Source: Phytophthora sp. 'mugwort' (taxonomy: Eukaryota > Oomycota > Peronosporomycetes > Peronosporales > Peronosporaceae). From it: DNA of 64,000 nt. A model generated the notes under the pieces. The model saw only the letters and a program-made list of their open reading frames with translations, made no database searches and was not told the DNA's origin. Location of the stretch: contig JAUCEF010000014.1 in assembly GCA_033558025.1 (NCBI GenBank), positions 1,922,001-1,986,000 on the forward strand, in the 5' to 3' direction. Every line of letters starts with the position of its first letter. The first letter of the stretch is position 1. The position numbers and the translations under genes were made by a program. Below are positions 4,909 through 62,800 of this stretch, one piece after another.

Positions 4909-5242
4909 TGTGACGGGGCAAACAACACCTTGCGCACAGGAAGCGGAGCTTCCGGAGAGTATACAAACTCTCAGTGAGCGGCAGTTCACAAGTCCCTGCT
5001 CTGGGGGACTGTTACCAAAATTAGGTAGATTTAAGACTGAATATATTTATAGGTGACCCCTTTTAATGCGTCTACATACTAACTATTAGTCACCTATAAA
5101 GTACCTTAGATGCTATCCTATAGAGTGGCGATGAGGTCTTTGTACCATATCTGTGGTACCTATCCGTGTGACGTCATTACCCTTGACGTCATAGTGATGT
5201 TTGGCTACATCACTTAGTGTACTTGGGTACACCTCCGTTACA
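4909..5242 (+). repeat. LTR of a Ty3/gypsy element (copy 1)
   Basis: The sequence starts TGTGAC and ends GTTACA, near-inverted termini in the TG...CA style of LTRs. It is alignable along most of its length to the inverted sequence at 55829-56193. A gag reading frame starts 185 bp after its end on the same strand, so it is the 5' LTR. Copy 1 lacks about 37 bp found near the 3' end of copy 2. Confidence 0.8.
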
Positions 5243-5427
5243 TCCCCTTCCCACTATGTTCGGTTTACGACCATCCAGGGCGAGTGAAAGGAAGTCGCCT
5301 CCTTCACTCTCCAAGTCGAATAACATCGACTTCGCCGCGGTTGGTTTCCGCAGCCGGCTCATTTCCTTTTGACCCCGAGCACTTCCGCGTGCTCTTCTCC
5401 TTCTCGGCTTCCACGTCAGCCCCAAGC

Positions 5428-6665
5428 ATGACCAAGACTCGGTCAGGCAGCGGTGCGAAAGCGCCTGCCAAGCCTGTTGCTTCCAAGCAGCAGGCTAATA
5501 GCTCTAAGCTGTCCGGCAAAGGCTCTGCTGCTAAGGGATCCACCAAGATGGCAACCAAGTGACACCCAAGGCACCTGAACCGCCTGAGGAGAACCGTGAG
5601 CTCCTCGTGGACAATGAGGAGGACTCGCACAAGTCTTCCATGTTCTGGGGCGATAACGAAATCCCGCTTGTCAAGGGGTCTGACGGCGACCCGAGTCAGT
5701 CGGACTCGCTTGGGTCCCGTACCCGCTGTCTAGCTATCATGGCGATAATGGCGACGCGCCGAAGACGCCCGAGCGCCAGGGGAGTCCAGGCTCACCCAGG
5801 GAGGACGAAGAGAAACCTCGTTCTCCGGTCAAGAATTTGACGATCGCTGAGTCAACTGCCCGCGTCAAGGCTGCTAAGGCTGCAGCAGCCTCGGAACTCA
5901 GCCTCAAGCGTCCTGCTGCTTCCAGGTCTCCAGTCCGTGAAGGGTATGGGACACTCACGTTCACGAACAAGCGCGTCTATTGCTCTTCTTCCGACGAGGA
6001 GGAAGAGGGCCAAGTCGGCCGAGGGATCTCCAACGATCTCGACGGGTAGCAGTCGGAGTACCAGGCTGCTCATTATGAGGGAGTGCGGGCCACGGCGACC
6101 CGGTCGCCTGTGAAGTACTCTTTACCTGTTACCTGCTTGTTTTGTTGGGGGGAATCGCCTTACGCTCCCGAGTACTTCCCTCCTGAGGGGTCCCACGGAG
6201 CCGACGTCTGCATGGGTCAGCTCCAGCCGCCGCACGTGCTTCTAGGGGAAGCTGTTCTCAGGGCGCGTATGAGCGCCACCTGGTGGCCAAACAGCCCCTC
6301 TTCCAGAACATGAGCATCGCTCAGTGCATGCTCCTGGCACCGCACGACATCCCATGAAAAAGTTCACGAGCCGGCGAAAGAAGCCAGAGCTCCGGTCGGG
6401 ACTGCGACCTGTCTGGGGCTATCCAGTCGTGATGCCCCCACACTGTGACTCCTTTCAAGAGGCAGAGGCTATATTTTGGAAGTCGGCATCTACGCGGTGC
6501 TCACAAGGACAACTCGAGGTTCTTCGGCAGGATCTCATGTTGCAGGCCATGCTTGACCTCCCAGATCTGCGTATTAAGTTTGCCCATGTGGTAGGCAAAC
6601 GGCAGCTCTCTCGAGAACTGCAGAAGCATCTGCTTTTAGCGCTCATGATGAGCGCGGGTAGGGTA
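5428..6665 (+). pseudogene. gag of a chromovirus-type Ty3/gypsy element, decayed
   Basis: The frame starts at the ATG at 5428 with MTKTRSGSGAK and a Lys/Ala/Ser/Pro-rich N-terminus almost identical to the start of the second copy at 55642 (minus). A one-base deletion near 5555 shifts the frame relative to that copy. After it the protein continues as a charged region and then an acidic Ser-rich stretch (about 5980-6050) before further stops. An additional open stretch to about 6665 has helical, capsid-like composition. There is no protease or reverse transcriptase after it on this strand; instead the sequence switches to an inverted pol end. Retroelement structural protein, non-functional here. 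Confidence 0.65.
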
Positions 6666-50528: not shown

Positions 50529-50911
50529 TAACGGCGCAGTGACTCCTCTGGTTGCGCGTCGGCAAACGCTTCGAATAACACAGGGACATCTTGCCGAATC
50601 ACCTTGGCCGGCTCCCAGGAGGCCTCGATGCCGTCCAACCCGATCCATTTGACGAGGATCTCCCATCGATTGATCTCAAGGCTAGGGCGACAGTCTCGAA
50701 GCGTCTCCACCAAGTGACCGCCCTCGTAATAGATGGCTTGTTCCGGCAGTTCTTCGGCTTGCACGGGGGGGGGGGGGGGGGCAATCAGTAGTGGCTCACG
50801 GTACACAATCGGGGCTACTTTTTCATAAATCCTTCTGAATGTATCAAAACCACGATTAATCCATGATTTAATGAAAAGGTGTAAATTTTGGACCACACCT
50901 CTCGATAGCAT
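50529..50911 (-). pseudogene. chromodomain end of a Ty3 chromovirus pol
   Basis: The 127-residue frame has YYEGGHLVETLRDCRP, then WEILVKWIGLDGIEASWEPA and QDVPVLFEAFADA: a good chromodomain with the WxxxxxSWEP core at the C-terminus of a chromovirus integrase. Upstream on this strand the sequence runs into the AT-rich island, so only the pol end remains. A poly-proline stretch in it is caused by the G17 run at 50765-50781. Confidence 0.8.
50765..50781. repeat. G17 homopolymer
   Basis: Seventeen consecutive G residues sit inside the chromodomain fragment. Confidence 0.9.
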
Positions 50912-50960
50912 AATTTAGTAAATATAAGATTCAATATTTTGCCTATATGAAGTTATCCAA

Positions 50961-51000
50961 ATATCAGGATCAAAAATTATAAATGACTTGATCCTGATAT
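50961..51000. repeat. 13-bp perfect inverted repeat at the edge of the AT-rich island
   Basis: ATATCAGGATCAA (50961-50973) is the exact inverse complement of TTGATCCTGATAT (50988-51000), with a 14-base AT-rich loop. The right arm contains the ATCCTGATA motif that also stands upstream of the ORF at 51.8 kb. Confidence 0.9.
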
Positions 51001-51018
51001 GTATTACTAAGTATATAA
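50991..51018 (+). promoter_or_regulatory. candidate promoter, ATCCTGATA + AGTATATAA
   Basis: ATCCTGATAT (50991-51000) is followed by AGTATATAA (51010-51018), 28 bp before the ATG of a 39-codon ORF. The same pair recurs at 51751-51780 with 2 bp different spacing. Confidence 0.5.
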
Positions 51019-51045
51019 GTAGAATACTATATAGTTATCGAGAGT

Positions 51046-51165
51046 ATGGTCATTCCCCTGGCGATCAAGAAAAACCGTCATGTTGTTTGCTTTCCAAGAG
51101 AAGATAACATGATCATTTTTCGCAGAGCCTACCACACCCAGACTGAGCCAAAGAAAGATCCATGA
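51046..51165 (+). CDS. small ORF in the AT-rich island, unknown
   Basis: A 39-residue ORF (MVIPLAIKKNRHVV...) starts 28 bp behind a TATA-like element and ends TEPKKDP. It is too short for family assignment and may be the N-terminal scrap of the next frame. Included because of its promoter position. Confidence 0.3.
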   Translation: MVIPLAIKKNRHVVCFPREDNMIIFRRAYHTQTEPKKDP

Positions 51166-51178
51166 AAAAATCAATCTT

Positions 51179-51727
51179 TTGTTAAGGACGCCTTCAAGCG
51201 AAACTGTTTATATAAGAGCATTGATTACTCACCCAAGCTATTTCGCAGCTTCCAATCTATCAGTATCCACCAAGTTAGGTGACCTTGAAGGATGTTCGAT
51301 ACTTAATATGATTGTGTTCTCGATAGATTTGGAGACTAATGCAGCGGCGTGCACTCGTAAATCGGACAAATGCTATAAAAATACTTTCAATATTTTATCT
51401 TTCGATAATCAGGCAATCTACATAGCTCGTATTGATCAGTTTTGCGTTAGTCAGTTTTGCACTGTTGAGAAATGCGGTAGAGTATTCAATAGCTCTGTCA
51501 CACTCAATAACCATAAGAAGAACTGTAAAGGATCTAAGCCATTGATCGATCCGTTAGCTGGAAAGAGTCATGATGAAGCGATAGATATGATAGAGGCTTT
51601 ACACAAGCTTCCTATTGCTTCTAAAGTGCTATGTCCTGGTGGTTCATCGATAACTCGATGGAACTATGGTCATCATATAACTTCGAAAAAGCATGCAGTA
51701 TGGTGGTCGTCAATTGTAGATACTTAA
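51179..51727 (+). pseudogene. zinc-finger-like segment, possibly N-terminal part of a protein-primed DNA polymerase
   Basis: The open frame has no ATG before 51308. It contains NMIVFSIDLETN, a KNTFNILSFDNQAIYIARI phrase and a finger with CTVEKCGRVF, then L-x-x-H-x-x-x-x-C (LNNHKKNC). In polinton and PLV protein-primed family B polymerases the N-terminal region has this same order: a V-N-V-x-x-(Y/F) strand, a phrase of the NLL-x-(Y/F)-x-x-H-x-x-x-I type, and a C-x2-4-C...L-x-x-H-x4-C finger. No polymerase motif follows; the rest (to 51727) is unrecognised. The family link is a motif-level inference. AT content is visibly higher than in host genes. Confidence 0.4.
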
Positions 51728-51750
51728 AATTATGAGTAATTAATCTTTTA

Positions 51751-51780
51751 ATCCTGATACAGGTCCTCTATAGTATATAA
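51751..51780 (+). promoter_or_regulatory. candidate promoter, second copy of ATCCTGATA + AGTATATAA
   Basis: ATCCTGATAC (51751-51760) precedes AGTATATAA (51772-51780). Downstream a CTATTCACC resembles the TTACTCACC found behind the TATATAA at 51211-51218. This suggests a repeated start-site element in this island. Confidence 0.5.
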
Positions 51781-51842
51781 ATAACAGTGACCTATTCACC
51801 TGAAAATACCAAGCTAACAAGGAACGCTTCAAAGCGAACCAG

Positions 51843-51983
51843 ATGCGGTATTACCTCAAGACGAGAGAAACACGTATCGCTAGGCAAAACACGTACGATA
51901 CAGCCCATAGAGAACAGATTAATACTCGACGTAGGGGGAAGCGCAAATTACTTAAAGCAAACGAGAAAACAGAATCGAATTAA
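51843..51983 (+). CDS. small basic ORF, unknown
   Basis: A 46-residue ORF rich in Arg, Lys and Gln (RQNTYDTAHREQINTRRRGK) starts 63 bp behind the TATA-like element. The A-H-R-E-x-I-x-x-R-R-R pattern resembles short helical repeats seen in small proteins of giant viruses and mobile introns. That similarity is weak. Confidence 0.35.
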   Translation: MRYYLKTRETRIARQNTYDTAHREQINTRRRGKRKLLKANEKTESN

Positions 51984-52086
51984 TTCAAGTATTTCCAAGA
52001 ATATAAAGTTCTATCTTAAGTAAAGTCTAACTAATATATAAAGACTTTTCCACCAGCCGAAATGTACCCACCGATATATAGCAATC

Positions 52087-52305
52087 ATGTTGCCGTACGA
52101 AGTTGAAGGTCTTAGGCGATTGGATATTCCGTACGTCAAATGGAAAGAAAAAAACTATGGCGTGAAGGTGCGAGGACGCACAGGTAAGATGGTTTATATT
52201 GGAAACCCATCTCATCCAAGAAATAAGAAACTAATTGATCGAGAGCAACGCTGGGCTACAGGCCCGAAAATAATGGACAACAGGAACGATCGGTGTAGAC
52301 CGTGA
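52087..52305 (+). pseudogene. basic unknown ORF in the AT-rich island, frameshifted
   Basis: The ATG at 52087 lies about 50 bp behind another TATATAA (52036-52042). The 72-residue frame is basic (YVKWKEKNYGVKVRGRTGKM). After a shift near 52275 it may go on as DRDAIREAEVRQYSIKLYWP and a hydrophobic stretch to about 52460. No family recognised. Confidence 0.4.
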
Positions 52306-55225: not shown

Positions 55226-55642
55226 TCACAGATCATGGCGAAGATGATCAAGCTGAAGCGACAGCGAGATCTGTTTTCGAATCAAGAAGCGAGTCAAGCT
55301 TGGATTCAGCGCGTCGCCATCGCCGCCGTGATGGTTAGACAACAGGGTAGGGGACCCAAGCGAGTCCGACAGACTCGGGTCGCCGTTTTGACCCGTTGAC
55401 GGGCGGGATCTCGTTATCGCCTCAGGGCATGGGAGACTTATCCGATTCCTCCTCATAGTCCACTAGAGGTCAGGATCCTACTTAGGCGGTTCAGGTGCCT
55501 TGGGGGTCACCTTGGATGCCACCTTGGCAGATCCCTTAGCGGTCGATCCTTTGCCAGACGGCTTAGAGCTCTTAGCCTGCTGCTTGGAAGCAATAGGCCT
55601 GGCAGGCACTTTCGCACCGCTGCCAGATCGAGTCTTTGTCAT
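55226..55642 (-). pseudogene. gag start of the chromovirus-type element (copy 2), truncated
   Basis: From the ATG at 55642 the frame reads MTKTRSGSGAKVPARPIASK, nearly the same as copy 1 at 5428 (+). It continues to KAPEPPK and a stop, and after a shift (55456-55226) to SLSDSLGSP-like sequence also found in copy 1. Homology ends near 55260, where it meets the second-family integrase fragment. Confidence 0.8.
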
Positions 55643-55828
55643 GCTTGAGGCTGACGTGGAAGCCGAGAAGATGAAGAGCACGCGGAAATGCTCGTGCACA
55701 AAAGGAAATGAGCCGGCTGCGGAAACAAACCGCAGCGAAGTCGATGTAATTCGACTTGGAGAGTGAAAGGCGGCGATTTCTTTTCACTCGTCCTGGATGG
55801 TCGGTAAACCGAACCTAAGTGGGGAGGA

Positions 55829-56193
55829 TGTAACGGGGTTATTTGACGACGAGTGCAACGTCACTCTTCAGAGCAGGTGTACCCAAGTACCCTAAGTGAT
55901 GTAGCCAACATCACTATGACGTTAACGGTATTGACGTCATGGATAGATACCACAGAGATGGTACAAAGTCCTCAGAGCCACTCAATAGGATAACATCTAG
56001 GGAACTTTATAAGTGACTAATAGTGAATGTATAGACGCATTAAAAGGGGTCACCTATATATTCAGTCTTAAAAAACTACTAATTTGGTAACAGTCCCACA
56101 GGGCAGGGACTAGTGGACTGCCGTTCACTGAGAGTTTGTATACTCTCCGGAGGTCACACTTCCTGTGCACAAGGTGCTGTGTGCCCGGTCACA
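55829..56193 (-). repeat. LTR of the chromovirus-type element (copy 2)
   Basis: This is the inverse complement of the LTR at 4909-5242, with the same TGTGAC and GTTACA ends. It precedes the gag start on the minus strand. It has about 37 bp more than copy 1 near its 3' end (around 55837-55873). Confidence 0.8.
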
Positions 56194-56271
56194 CATAACT
56201 CGATAGGAAGATATCGAGCATGTGTAGTAGTTGGTCAAGGAGTACAACATCTAGTACTCGAATATTTACAA

Positions 56272-56969: not shown

Positions 56970-57344
56970 CTAAGTCCCCTTAGACTCTTCATCCTCATCC
57001 GTCCTGGCGAGGGTGCCGGTCGCATCCTCGATCGCATCCTCGACAGAGACATGCTCCATCTGGACCTCCAGATCGCGCGCCATCAACTCGTCCAGCAGTC
57101 TTGACTCCACTCGTGGCGGCGGGCGATCGTCAGGAGGCGAGCCTCGTCGCGAGTGATGTAAGCCCATCCAGCGTGCGGATCCTGGTTGTTGCCGTGCAGG
57201 TGGCAATACGAGGGTTGGAACGTCGCCTTGATGCGCTTGGGACTGCTCGGGTGGTTGCCTGGACACTGCACCGTCGGGACTAGGTTGACGTTCAGGTGGA
57301 GCTCGACGTCGGAGCAGCATCTTGCAAAGTGTGAGAAAATTCAC
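56970..57344 (-). pseudogene. unknown ORF pair, retroelement- or virus-like
   Basis: A 124-residue Pro/Arg-rich frame and an overlapping frame (57271-57083) with YCHLHGNNQDPHAGWAYITR are open. The latter wording (His/Cys spacing, WAYITRDEARLL) looks like real protein sequence, the former like its shadow. I do not recognise the family. Confidence 0.3.
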
Positions 57345-57594
57345 ACGATCGGCTGAATTTCATAATCTGACGCGGATAGGCACGAATCTAACAGACGCGC
57401 GGTCTTATCAGTTGTGAGAGGACCTCTTATTAGCTAATACAGGATTACAGGCTATCAATACCACCGGATGACAGACGTGACAGAGCATTGGCACACGGAT
57501 ATTGCTACTCACGAAAGCTCTACTGCTTCCTCATGCTATTAAATATCACGATGACGCCATGTCTCCACTTTCGGCTCCGCAAACCCTTCTTATT

Positions 57595-57636
57595 TCTCTC
57601 TCTCTTTATTTATATATATATTTATAAAAGAGAGAG
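57595..57636. repeat. imperfect palindrome, (TC)n-(TA)n-(AG)n
   Basis: TCTCTCTCTC, an AT core and AGAGAGAG make a 42-bp near-palindrome. A sequence TTTACTCACCC like those behind the TATA elements at 51.2 and 51.8 kb follows at 57653. Confidence 0.7.
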
Positions 57637-57818
57637 TGGTGTCATTGATTGATTTACTCACCCTGAATACGAGTAGAATGCTTTAAAGTGCCGATATCGT
57701 GATGACATCACTCGTGTCATCGAATTCCTAAACAAAGACAAACCTGGACGATAGGAGCGCGGGCGATGCGGCACAAAACAATATACAATAGCTGGGAGCG
57801 CGCCACGCGGATGGTACT

Positions 57819-58043
57819 CTACTCTCGTGCACCGGATGGTCTCACAAGCCAGATGGAAATCTTACTAATGGCGGGTCTGTCGATCGACAGTTGATCCACC
57901 TTGTCTATGCCGTCGGAACTGAGCAGAGAGGAAGCGATCGATCTCTGAGTCTGGCGCGAATATGCCTTGCTCATACAGTCACAGGAAGTAGCACCAATCG
58001 GCCATGAAGACGGAGTATATGCTCTCGAAACGATTTTTTCCAA
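57819..58043 (-). CDS. small ORF downstream of the capsid-like gene, unknown
   Basis: A 74-residue frame (MEKIVSRAYTPSSWPIG...) is collinear with the capsid-like gene and starts ~80 bp after its stop. No domain recognised; it may be a small viral gene or chance. Confidence 0.25.
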   Translation of the reverse strand: MEKIVSRAYTPSSWPIGATSCDCMSKAYSRQTQRSIASSLLSSDGIDKVDQLSIDRPAISKISIWLVRPSGARE

Positions 58044-58124
58044 AAGTAAATGTACTCATTGTGATCTATATCGGACTCAACATTTTTGTCCGTTTCAAAT
58101 TAATTTGCTTTCAACTAGATGTGT

Positions 58125-59915
58125 TCAATCGGTTCTATGAACTTCTCCTGTGAGACGGTTGATCTCAAGTTCGTGCTCGTAAATAATGAGCAAGAGCAGA
58201 TCCATGCCGGTCGCCAAGCCGTTGATTCCCGACACCTGAATGGCATGAGGCACCTCCTTGTGGGTGACACGCGAGCAGTCAGCTACGAGGATGCACTGGG
58301 CCATTGACCACTGTTGTGAGTCAATGAGTTTGTTCGAGATCTCACCACTCAGGTCCCCATTAATGGTTCCCAGTTTACTGAACTCGTGTCGGAATGATTC
58401 GAAATCGTACTCCTGGCTCCTGTCGAATCCGTTTGTGTTACCGATGGTTACCTGGAAATTGCGAATCGATACGCCTGGCATGCAAGTCCATGGGGCACTA
58501 TCGAACGGACTCTGATACTGCGGCGTGCCGTGCTCGGTGGCGAAGTGGCCTGCGCTCGTCTCCGCGAACGGGAGGAGAGCCACGTATTTAACGTTCTTCT
58601 TGTACCCAGAGATGTTAAGATCGAAAGGAGCATTCAACTGGCCAGTAGGTGTCTCAGGAAACGTACCAGCACCCTTGCGGAACATCTAGGCGAAACAGTC
58701 TTGGTAGCGAACGGTCTTCACCGGCTTCTGGATGATAGACGTCAGATTGCGTAGATGATATAACGGAATCATTAGAAGGCTGGTCGTGAATGAGAATTAC
58801 TCGCCAACCTGGCTGGTAGACGTAAATGCGCTGCCAACTGGGCCAAATGAGAACGATATCTGAGAGCCCGCGGTCGTTAGTACATTGTCCATAGGCGCAG
58901 CAGGAGGGATCGTGTCATTAGCCGCGGTCTTAGCACCAGCTGTAGCCGGGGCGACCATGATTGGAACGGTCTGTCCGGAGGTCATCGTGGTTGAGTCGAG
59001 CTTCATAGTTGAAGCAGTACCCGATAGAGCAACCGTACCAGCATTAATACGCAAGCGAAACTTTAGCTGTAGATTAGCACAGAGGTCGATTTCCTTGAAA
59101 TTGGGGTGTAGATCTACGAGCTTGATTTTTAGCACATGAAACTAGCGACCAACAATTTTGTCGTTGCCGAACGAGGTTACATCCGACTCTTTACAACGTT
59201 CGTGCCCGTTCTGCTGAAGGAGCTGTTTGGTAGCTCTAGTACCGACCGAGGCCCACGAGAAGGCTCCGATGGCCTCAGTAGAGTCGATGGGGCGGGAGCG
59301 TCCGTCAGACGTTTGAGGAAATCACTGTTGTACACCCACGGTTCCTGGGGCCTGTGGTAACGTGTTGCCGAGTGGCGATGTCATATCAATCTGGATGTTT
59401 GAGTAGCCATAGCCCGTCGCTGATGCAGAACCACTGAAGTTGATGCCAGACCACGTATCAGGATACAAATTCATGTCTGCGCCATGCTTCACCACCTCAT
59501 CCTTAGAAAGTTCAGTCATCGCTCGTAGATTATTCCAAAATCCTTTGTATTTATATTCCGTGGCAATTTTTTTACCGTTGAGCTCGACAGTCAGAGAGTC
59601 GACGACATTGGTGACGTTACATTTGGGCGCACACGCATATCTAGAGATAGTGCTCTTGTTGAGGTCAGCACTGCCGGTGCTCTTAGCAGTGATAACATAC
59701 GGTAGTAGAAGGTAGCCATCGTTTAGGCTAGCATATCCTTGCGAGCCTGTTAGCTGCGAGGTGGCATCAATCGTGATCAATCCCGAGTTCTATGATCCCT
59801 GGTTGCCATCATAGATGACTGATACGGACTTACCCTTCGATACATCGAAGGATGTCTCGGATTTGAGGGCTGATTGCAGTCTATAGGCATCTGCTAATTG
59901 GGTGGTGTCAGACAT
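58125..59915 (-). pseudogene. PLV-type major capsid-like gene, five in-frame stops
   Basis: A single 597-codon frame runs from the ATG at 59915 (MSDTTQLADAYRLQSALKSE) to TGA at 58125-58127, broken only by stops at 59790, 59322, 59142, 58797 and 58686 (plus-strand coordinates of the leftmost base). The part after codon 45 has GLITIDATSQLTG, NVVDSLTVELNGK and FWNNLRAMTELSKDEV, typical of double jelly-roll capsid proteins of polinton-like viruses and virophage-like elements; the length fits too. The C-terminal third has DFESFRHEFSKLGTINGD. It lies in a cluster with penton-, core- and ATPase-like genes. The TATA-like ATATATTT stands 9-16 bp before the ATG. It is an old, non-coding viral copy. Confidence 0.7.
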
Positions 59916-59962
59916 GGCTGGAAATATATTGCGGCTGATATAGTCTGGTGAGAAAATAATTG

Positions 59963-60190
59963 ATGGAGCTAGTCAAAGGTGTCACCTCTGTTCACGATCT
60001 AATCGAGCTGAGCAAGCGCGTCAGAGTAACGATTGATAACATAGTCGGCTTTCCGAGATCGAACGCCCGCTCCCCGCAAAAGGAAGCCATCTGGTACCTC
60101 TTAGGACGAGCCCTGGAGTCGGCCATTGGGTCGCTGTATGTGATGGTAGCTACGTCGATAGCATGGGCGTCCCACCTCCGACCGCGTTAG
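59963..60190 (+). CDS. small ORF between capsid and core genes, unknown
   Basis: A frame of about 75 residues (MELVKGVTSVHDLIELSKRV...) runs divergently from the capsid-like gene, with a 47-bp gap, and ends with a hydrophobic stretch and HLRPR. It is intact and well placed for a small viral gene, but unrecognised. Confidence 0.35.
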   Translation: MELVKGVTSVHDLIELSKRVRVTIDNIVGFPRSNARSPQKEAIWYLLGRALESAIGSLYVMVATSIAWASHLRPR

Positions 60191-60373
60191 GAAATCTACT
60201 GTAATTCGACCGGCAGATTCAAGCTTCCACAGCTGAATGTTGTGGGGTGTGGTGTCTCCTGTGGATCTACTGTCGCCAGCACAAAACAATGCACCTAATT
60301 GATAGGTTCATGGATTTGGATGTTGGTGTTATTTAATTTTTGAGTGTTTAGCTCTCAAGCTAATATATCAATC

Positions 60374-60990
60374 ATGCTTTACAAGGAACTATCCGTTTCC
60401 AATGCTATCCCAGCGGCTCGCCTCCTTAAGGCTGTCCAGTCCGGCAACCTGCAGCTGACCAAAGCTGATCTGGCTGGCTCTGGCGCAACTCTACATTACA
60501 TCCAGACTCGTATGCTAAGTTTATGAAAGCTAAGAGGGCTAACAGAGGCGTTCGCATTACTATTACTCCGCACGAGATTGAGTACCGAATGGAAGTTATT
60601 GGTGGTAGTCTTCAAGGTTCGTTCATATGGAAGAAAATATGGGCTGGCCTCAAGAGTGCTTGGAAACCAGTAATCTAGCCTGCTCTATCGGCTGCCGCGG
60701 TCGGGTTCGCTAGCATGGGATCTGCATACATAGCATCGATGGGTCGCGATCAGGATCTCGTCGGCGTTGCTCGCCAAGCGTTGAAGAAAGTTACAGGAAG
60801 TGGAGTTGCCGAGGCTGAGCCCTCGCAACGCTTGAGCTTCGCAAAGGGGTCTCCAGCGATGAAGGCGAAGATGGCGCGACTCCGTGCGATGCGCAAGTGC
60901 AGTGGTAGCTCTAAGAGCTCTGGTGGCTCAGGGGGGGGGGGTAGATTATATATATATATATATAATGCTTTACGTTTTTTGTCGAACAAT
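60374..60990 (+). pseudogene. small basic virion-core-like protein gene, broken
   Basis: The ATG at 60374 lies directly behind AATATATCAATC. The first frame (LYKELSVSNAIPAARLLKAV, then GNLQLTKADLAGSG) shifts near 60500 to a frame with HPDSYAKFMKAKRANRGVRI and WKKIWAGLKSAWKP. It reaches a TAG at 60676, then continues in frame as a Lys/Arg/Ala-rich tail ending in GGSGGGG. A promoter-like short leader, an S-N-x-I-P..LLKAV..G...LTKADL phrase and a basic Gly-rich tail recall small virion proteins of polinton-like viruses. A G11 run and a (TA)n tract sit at its end. Family name uncertain. Confidence 0.5.
60931..60965. repeat. G11 run and (TA)n tract
   Basis: Eleven G residues (60931-60941) are followed by GTAGAT and an alternating TA tract. 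Together they mark the border between the convergent core-like and penton-like genes. Confidence 0.9.
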
Positions 60991-61872
60991 TAAGCTGATC
61001 AGCATGTTCGTATCGTTCAGTCGAGCAAATCGTTCGTCCTGATCTACAATCGTCAGCGTCACCGAGGCGTAGCTTCCATTCTGGATATCAGCCCAGCTGA
61101 ACTCGTTAGGTTGATCACAAGCTGACCAATTGTGGTGCTTGCTGTGCTGAAGGTGATTTATACATCATCAGGGATGCAGTAGGGGTTGGAAACGAGCGAG
61201 CATCGAAGATGATAGCTTGATACGGTTACGGGATTGATCTGAGGCGGGATCGGCGACAGGATCGACTGTTATGTATATAAGCTCTGAGTTTGTGTACCAA
61301 GCTCGAATCCAAAGACCTTTCCGAATTCAGCGTTATCAATATCGATATTGGGAACGCACGAGAACCCAAGCGGTAATCCAGAGCCACTGTCTGAGTATAG
61401 CCCAGTAGGCGGTCGAGACCAGCCTGAAGCAAGGGTCGTCGGCACAGGCGAGAAATCAACTTGACAGGAGTAGAATGTAGGGTTCTCAGACAAATAAAAA
61501 AAAAAACATTGTCGCCATCAGCATTGATTAGGTACGCTCCGGCGCTCATCATCGCTGCTTGAACAGATGCATTGATATTGGCATAGCTGTAATATCTATC
61601 ACGAAGTGCGATCTGGATCGTCGAGTAGTCATTGCCAGTTGGCATCAAAATCCTGAAAGAATTATTGCCATATGAAGTGGAGCCGATCCTGAATTGAGAA
61701 TTATACAGGTTGATGCTGTGGATAGCAACTTCGGTATTGACGAACTCGCCAGAGCTGCCAGGGAACTCGTATCGGAGCATGTTATTGAATCCATTGGAAA
61801 ATGATATGGCGGGTAGATAGGGTAATGATATTCGACACGATTTTGATATTCATTTTCTGAAACTAATTGCAT
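60970..61872 (-). pseudogene. penton (minor capsid)-like gene, broken
   Basis: From the ATG at 61872 (MQLVSENEYQNRVEYHYPIY) the frame shifts near 61795 into MLRYEFPGSSGEFVNTEVAI. It continues through ALRDRYYSYANINASVQAAM to about 61500, shifts again to VDFSPVPTTL...PLGFSCVPNI, and after a stop and further shifts ends with ASVTLTIVDQDERF and NMLISLIVRQKT at 60970. The beta-rich wording, the ~300-residue length and the position directly behind the ATPase gene (overlap of 23 bp) fit the single-jelly-roll penton proteins of polinton-like viruses. No catalytic motif is expected. Confidence 0.6.
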
Positions 61873-62532
61873 GTTCGATAAAATTATATCTCAATACGCC
61901 TCTAACATTGTCGGTCAACAATGCTTGACCTTTTTCTTTAGTGGCTTCATTGTAAGCGCTAATTAGCTTCTCAAGCGTAATTCCTTGGCGACTGAAGTCG
62001 CTGATGACCATTCTTAAGTCTCGTCTGCTGTTCGCCTTGAGGATCCAGAGGTACTCTGAGTTGAGCCTAATAAGCTTGTCCGTGCTGAACCACGAATGCG
62101 TCAGAAACAGTGTTGAGAACCGTTTGTAGCGACCGCGGATGAAGTAATGGCTGAAGAGATCCTTCTGAAACTTCTTATCCGAGCTGTAGTCATCAATGAT
62201 GACGAGCTGGATGCCACCTCTGGAATCTTTCTGAATATCATCAAGCGACGGTAGAGCTGATGGCTCATACAGCGTTATGAATCCATTCAGTTTGTCCTTC
62301 ATATAATTGTATAGCTCTTGATTAGGGTTGCGGGCGATGATATGTAGATGGCTAAAAACGTTATAGCTGTTCTTAACGATTTAAAGACGAGATTGGTCTT
62401 TCCCGCGTTAGAGGGCGCAAGAATGATTCCTCGAAATCGTCTCTTGATTCCATGTGCCTTAATATCACCGAGAGAGTCTGAACGGTACTCGTTTGGGAGT
62501 GCTGCTCCCCAGTTATCAATCTTCGTCGCCAT
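61850..62532 (-). pseudogene. A32-like genome-packaging ATPase gene, one frameshift
   Basis: The ATG at 62532 (MATKIDNWGAALPNEY) opens a frame with the P-loop GIILAPSNAGKT (Walker A, A-P-S-N-A-G-K-T). A shift near 62375 leads to the frame 62302-61850, with IQLVIIDDYSSD (Walker B, hydrophobics then DD) and THSWFSTDKLIRLNSEYLW, the sensor-like region. Total length about 227 codons. These traits and the length match FtsK/HerA-type packaging ATPases of polinton-like viruses and larger DNA viruses. The TATA-like TATATATCA stands about 30 bp upstream. The reading frame is broken, so no product is expected. Confidence 0.75.
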
Positions 62533-62800
62533 TCGCGAGCTTTGAAAGTATATTCGATGATATATATAATCAAGCCGTCGTAGTGGGATTTACAGCTCGT
62601 CCTCCTCGCAAGAATCAACAATCTTTAATCCAAATTACTATGCGAGCGGAACAGACGTTTTGAGCCTCGAGATGGCTGACGCCCTATTTCGTAGCAAGAC
62701 TGATTATAGATTAAGTTATATTTCTGGGATCACTCTGGGATAAGCAGCGCCCATGTCAGCTCTCGTCGTTGATTCAAATCAAGACATAGGAGATATCACC
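62533..62800. other. right flank of the virus-like module
   Basis: AT-rich upstream sequence of the ATPase-like gene. No further gene before the retroelement junction at 62800. Confidence 0.5.

Follow-up and report, generated by a model that had tools for sequence, protein, structure and literature searches.

Integrated Polinton-like viruses (PLVs) of oomycetes are an established kind of element. In the portions of Bellas and Sommaruga 2021 (PMC7805220) drawn on here, 15 oomycete elements are described, Gossevirus-type capsids among them; four of the 15 combine rve with pPolB, and inverted repeats and duplications of 5–7 bp occur in some. Excerpts of Bellas et al. 2023 (PMC10120064) give up to 299 capsid copies in a single oomycete genome, and in excerpts of PMC12220804 S74 fibres and cysteine proteases are described in PLVs. 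As oomycete PLVs, their host group and their scale are covered in these excerpts (PMC7805220, PMC10120064), the class is already published and what is new is the individual copy analysed here. It lies in Phytophthora sp. 'mugwort', within a 64,000-nucleotide stretch of contig JAUCEF010000014.1 (C14:1922001-1986000) that is referred to as the window. A block of gene remnants near the end of the window is, with a probability of about 0.92, one half of an old and dead PLV of ~16 kb with a polinton-type gene set, residing in an oomycete chromosome. This reading is built on six gene types, the protein families of intact relatives, sibling copies, inverted repeats, a displaced second half and the published oomycete PLVs.

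The Gossevirus (GKS1) PLVs of oomycetes, as presented in the consulted parts of PMC7805220 and PMC10120064, share with the family found here an oomycete host, an ATPase and high copy number, a capsid type that is not BLAST-linked to other viruses, a cysteine protease in many members, to which the family here has a putative counterpart, and, in some, rve together with pPolB, terminal inverted repeats as well as short duplications of the target site. The window copy differs in being decayed and split by 47.8 kb. From host group and gene content we infer a putative membership in the Gossevirus (GKS1) group. Polintons (Mavericks) resemble the family in having an rve integrase, family-B polymerase, ATPase, a protease (putative here), capsid-type genes and terminal repeats, and a 6-bp target duplication was likewise seen here in one of three siblings; in contrast to polintons, the capsid type is without sequence match to known families and the element measures about 15-16 kb. 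A Peptidase_S74 fibre and, in some clusters, an rve integrase are shared with PLVs of cryptophytes and other protists in the sections of PMC12220804 used, where a cysteine protease, here putative, is found in the GKS1-type cluster; the hosts differ.

The genome comprises 86.26 Mb in 154 contigs. Elicitins are a marker of oomycetes, and an oomycete host fits because 44 elicitin-family matches, all above cut-off, were found in the genome as compared to none in any of 14 control genomes. Since C14 is 4.28 Mb long and the window carries a cysteinyl-tRNA synthetase frame, the viral block belongs to the chromosome as assembled. An Rfam scan and a tRNA scan of the window were both empty.

Searches of the broken window pieces against Pfam, PHROGs and the PDB gave no significant virus-family match, and intact relatives from the same genome were therefore taken as queries. 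Sixteen proteins from less damaged copies were searched against the window with composition correction off, and nine matched at E <= 0.01. Two of these queries hit the same ATPase remnant, and two polymerase pieces matched at 51-52 kb, outside the block. The seven queries without a window match were the S74 end, the integrase, two small proteins and three unknowns. A control in which the same 16 queries were run against 20 dinucleotide-shuffled versions of the window and one reversed version, with composition correction at default, unlike in the real search, yielded three matches (E 0.007, 0.007 and 0.009). The block matches, at E 1.8e-127 to 2.9e-9 against controls no better than 0.007, are thus not due to chance. 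Gene set and order in the block agree with those of PLV copies elsewhere in the genome that have suffered less damage.

The relatives in turn connect the block to known families. The intact ATPase relative (L035) matched Pox_A32 (PF04665) at 36.6 bits, with a curated cut-off of 22.8, the intact integrase relative matched rve (PF00665) at 33.0 bits (cut-off 32.6) and the fibre end of a relative matched Peptidase_S74 (PF13884) above its curated cut-off. A chromodomain match in relatives fell slightly below cut-off. Among PHROGs, the ATPase relative matched a terminase family (E 3.2e-6) and the fibre-type frame of L034 a tail-fibre family (E 8.6e-5). Matches to the polymerase family PF03175 were obtained at 12 places in the genome, 11 of them above cut-off and two of these 11 only together with in-frame neighbours; the N-terminal polymerase pieces of relatives had no family match themselves. 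Profile searches had been proposed as a check in an earlier note on this stretch: they gave no significant virus family for the broken pieces and family matches for some proteins of the relatives. The central proposal of that note, an integrated PLV-type fragment in an oomycete, is supported by the relatives' gene set and order, the siblings and the terminal repeats. What it described is the PLV half of a decayed copy that is split in two, and a fibre remnant at the break point had been missed.

All six genes of the block are damaged (Table 1). The capsid-type gene runs from an ATG at 59915 to a TGA at 58125, which is exactly the 597 codons previously noted, and contains five unreported in-frame stops at codons 42, 198, 258, 373 and 410. 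The label capsid refers to length and place, which would suit a double jelly-roll major capsid protein, and to literature, and not to a fold. The P-loop motifs seen earlier are both present, Walker A (APSNAGKT) in an open piece at 62302-62589 and Walker B (VIIDD) in an open piece of another frame at 61853-62380; as the two sit in different frames, the ATPase gene is frameshifted and not one open frame. The penton-length gene and the small basic gene of the earlier note were likewise recovered, each divided over two frames, the latter with a stop. The protease is also spread over two frames and the fibre gene is shortened. A candidate protease, said earlier not to be visible, is present as a broken remnant with a GHW...D...CG pattern that we take to be an adenain-like motif.

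Table 1. Viral features of the window, in window coordinates
Feature	Position	Strand	Evidence
Morphogenesis half of decayed Polinton-like virus	58033..62798	- (element orientation)	Sibling copies match the stretch
Major-capsid-type gene, 597 codons, five internal stops	58125..59915	-	42% identity over 563/572 residues of intact relative, E 1.8e-127
Cysteine-protease-type remnant, two frames and a stop	59960..60333	+	E 3.5e-20 to protease-type protein of L034
Minor-capsid-type small basic gene, two frames and a stop	60374..60897	+	E 2.7e-25 to L034 protein
Penton-type gene, two frames (61798-61499, 61505-61116)	61116..61798	-	E 3.5e-46 to 241-residue frame of L035
Packaging ATPase (A32/FtsK type), Walker A and B in two frames	61862..62520	-	E 2.7e-61 to L029
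Tail-fibre gene N-terminal remnant, with a stop, cut at junction	62582..62797	+	E 2.9e-9 to L034 fibre-type frame
Break point: virus ends, inverted copy of window 8130-30841 starts	62798..62800		Sibling and self-duplication matches

In a DNA search the window element proved to have eight siblings of several kb, two each on C12 and C4 and one each on C14, C13, C11 and C1, at 79-92% identity piece by piece, along with shorter fragments at other places. Compared with eight capsids of an abundant type, some of them partial, the window capsid has a protein identity of 41-45%. Matching rows numbered at least 153 for the ATPase piece, at least 150 and at least 151 for two capsid pieces and at least 148 for the integrase; these are rows and not loci, as a broken copy can give several, and scoring was confined to the best 144 to 150 candidates. 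The region of C12 around 2.33-2.51 Mb carries PLV ATPase copies that are nearly identical and recur at regular intervals, 26.4 kb over three steps and 29.3 kb over two. Capsid copies share this spacing and one unit holds an esterase-like frame, as judged by eye.

Three siblings of 15-16 kb are bounded by inverted terminal repeats that are 96, 88 and 84% identical, and the six bases flanking the C11 sibling match exactly. A copy on C5 had no terminal repeat in the two pieces examined. In the window, sibling matches cease between 58097 and 58033 on the left, where the right end of the element is lost, and at 62798 on the right. The adjoining stretch at 57055-58127, which overlaps the last bases of the capsid gene, has counterparts of 82-90% identity at three C12 places (2188-2216 kb); it is not the terminal repeat, and no PLV protein match is present at the one C12 place examined.

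The missing part of the element was located on the same contig. The C12 sibling (L023) runs on beyond the end of the window copy, window position 62798 corresponding to L023:5570. When 5.6 kb of this sibling were used as query, a match was obtained at C14:2032646-2035827, in the orientation of the window element and ending at sibling base 5570. Further displaced pieces reach 2038903 and a terminal repeat (90%) is found at 2044229-2044425. By protein comparison the displaced half (C14:2032646-2044425) holds an integrase spread over three frames together with a broken polymerase, the latter matched via relatives whose continuing genes match PF03175. The two halves total ~16.5 kb, and the C12 sibling measures 16.1 kb between repeat ends. 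The earlier statement that the block holds no integrase or complete polymerase is accordingly correct, the element's own being beyond the 47.8 kb interruption. An 88-bp piece of the sibling integrase gene (L023 379-466) has 97% matches on numerous small contigs in the range C15 to C54. Within the window a second PLV remnant, a polymerase piece, lies at 50785-52245 (+) and has relatives on C10, C7, C5, C17 and C3 at ~83-90%. It was rejected as the element's own polymerase, being on the opposite strand and on the capsid side, with the own polymerase present in the displaced half.

The 47.8 kb between the halves start with an inverted copy of window 8130-30841 and show local rearrangement at the far end. 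Segments of the inverted copy are 87-99.7% identical to that stretch, the three longest at 98.8, 98.8 and 99.7%. Viewed on its own, this is an inverted segmental duplication of ~23 kb (window 8130-30841 versus C14:1984800-2008318, mostly 97-99.7%) whose inner junction cuts the PLV. The duplicated part carries the cysteinyl-tRNA synthetase and a sulfatase-like frame; with these inside, and no target duplication seen by eye at the junction, interpretation of the inverted neighbour as a transposon was rejected. Because the identity of the duplication exceeds that between the window capsid and its siblings (86.1-89.6%), the split of the element probably post-dates its insertion.

Several observations weigh against identification of the block as a PLV half. 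The capsid, penton, minor and protease types, intact copies included, matched no family of Pfam, PHROG or NCBIfam, and the capsid and penton types had no convincing sequence match in the PDB. The names of these four consequently rest on position, length, conservation and literature, and that of the protease also on its motif. Viral-contig scans confirmed no relative, and the single structure model, of a 186-residue capsid-type piece, was poor (mean pLDDT 39). The target duplication is limited to five of six bases in the C12 sibling and is absent from the C4 sibling, and the window copy has no right terminal repeat, the window having been searched for it.

The copies could also be a polinton-like transposon that moves within cells, or passengers of chromosome duplication, in which case the block would never have been a separate virus infection. 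Such an origin accords with many copies in one genome, some of them in regular C12 arrays, and with a family that is known here from genes and not from particles. It is nonetheless unlikely given how the copies decayed. The five capsid stops of the window were checked in seven siblings (that on C1 left out), and at the 34 of 35 positions that were readable the same stop was never present; one sibling had a different stop at one of the five codons. As none of the stops is common to siblings, the copies decayed separately and the window copy was not multiplied after its decay. Measured against the window, five of the seven siblings show more differences at third codon positions than at the first two; for the remaining two siblings the three positions are nearly even. 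The pattern in the five is a vestige of selection that once acted on the protein, and the whole would fit divergence of working viruses before insertion, followed by neutral decay. Open capsid frames of at least 500 codons without a stop moreover persist at 14 rows among the matches listed.

Two further objections concern the integrity of the copy. With ~150 matching rows per gene a chance neighbour can be envisaged, and C14:2032646-2044425, which also carries a second, partial polymerase match, might belong to another PLV copy instead of completing the window element. We regard this as distinctly improbable since the two pieces share contig, orientation and subfamily, both meet at sibling base 5570, the terminal repeat lies at the expected far end and the lengths sum correctly. 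It could also be argued that the element is really intact and that, being repeated, it was given its stops and frameshifts by faulty assembly; in the parts of Bellas et al. 2023 (PMC10120064) consulted, wrong consensus in repeated viral insertions is described as making genes seem broken. Here, however, the element is severed at 62798, its right end is lost and every one of its genes is damaged, while the window capsid is 10 to 14% of bases apart from its siblings, at which distance easy mixing of reads would not be expected. Assembly error is therefore a very remote prospect, and the block is best read as half of a decayed PLV.

Elsewhere in the window, a repeat of ~0.9 kb at 55305-56194 and 4909-5763 has many copies in the genome at 83-88% identity (best 40 of 1039 candidates).

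The history of the PLV may be pictured as follows. A protein-primed family-B polymerase would have copied the ancestral genome, a particle would have been formed by the capsid, penton and minor proteins, the A32/FtsK-type ATPase would have packed the DNA and the cysteine protease matured the particle, roles that for the particle and its shell proteins are putative. The S74-type fibre would have attached the particle to hosts. The rve integrase would then have inserted the linear genome with its terminal inverted repeats, leaving a short target duplication. Thereafter the copy presumably decayed through stops and frameshifts of its own, and at a later time, if the order of events is as proposed, the 47.8 kb stretch starting with the inverted segmental duplication came between the halves.

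It is conceivable, if doubtful, that this one genome preserves successive waves of virus. An older PLV subfamily of decayed copies, that of the window, would then have become extinct, and a second one, the abundant type to which the window capsid is 41-45% identical, has many open capsid and integrase frames and lies partly in regular arrays of 26-29 kb. This second subfamily might remain mobile or expressed and might serve as a virophage-like defence against giant viruses. As a well-resolved old PLV insertion in an oomycete chromosome, the locus itself illustrates how such copies can come to look incomplete: the integrase and polymerase half was displaced by 47.8 kb and not lost. Tallies of fragmentary endogenous viruses may, as a result, overlook displaced halves.

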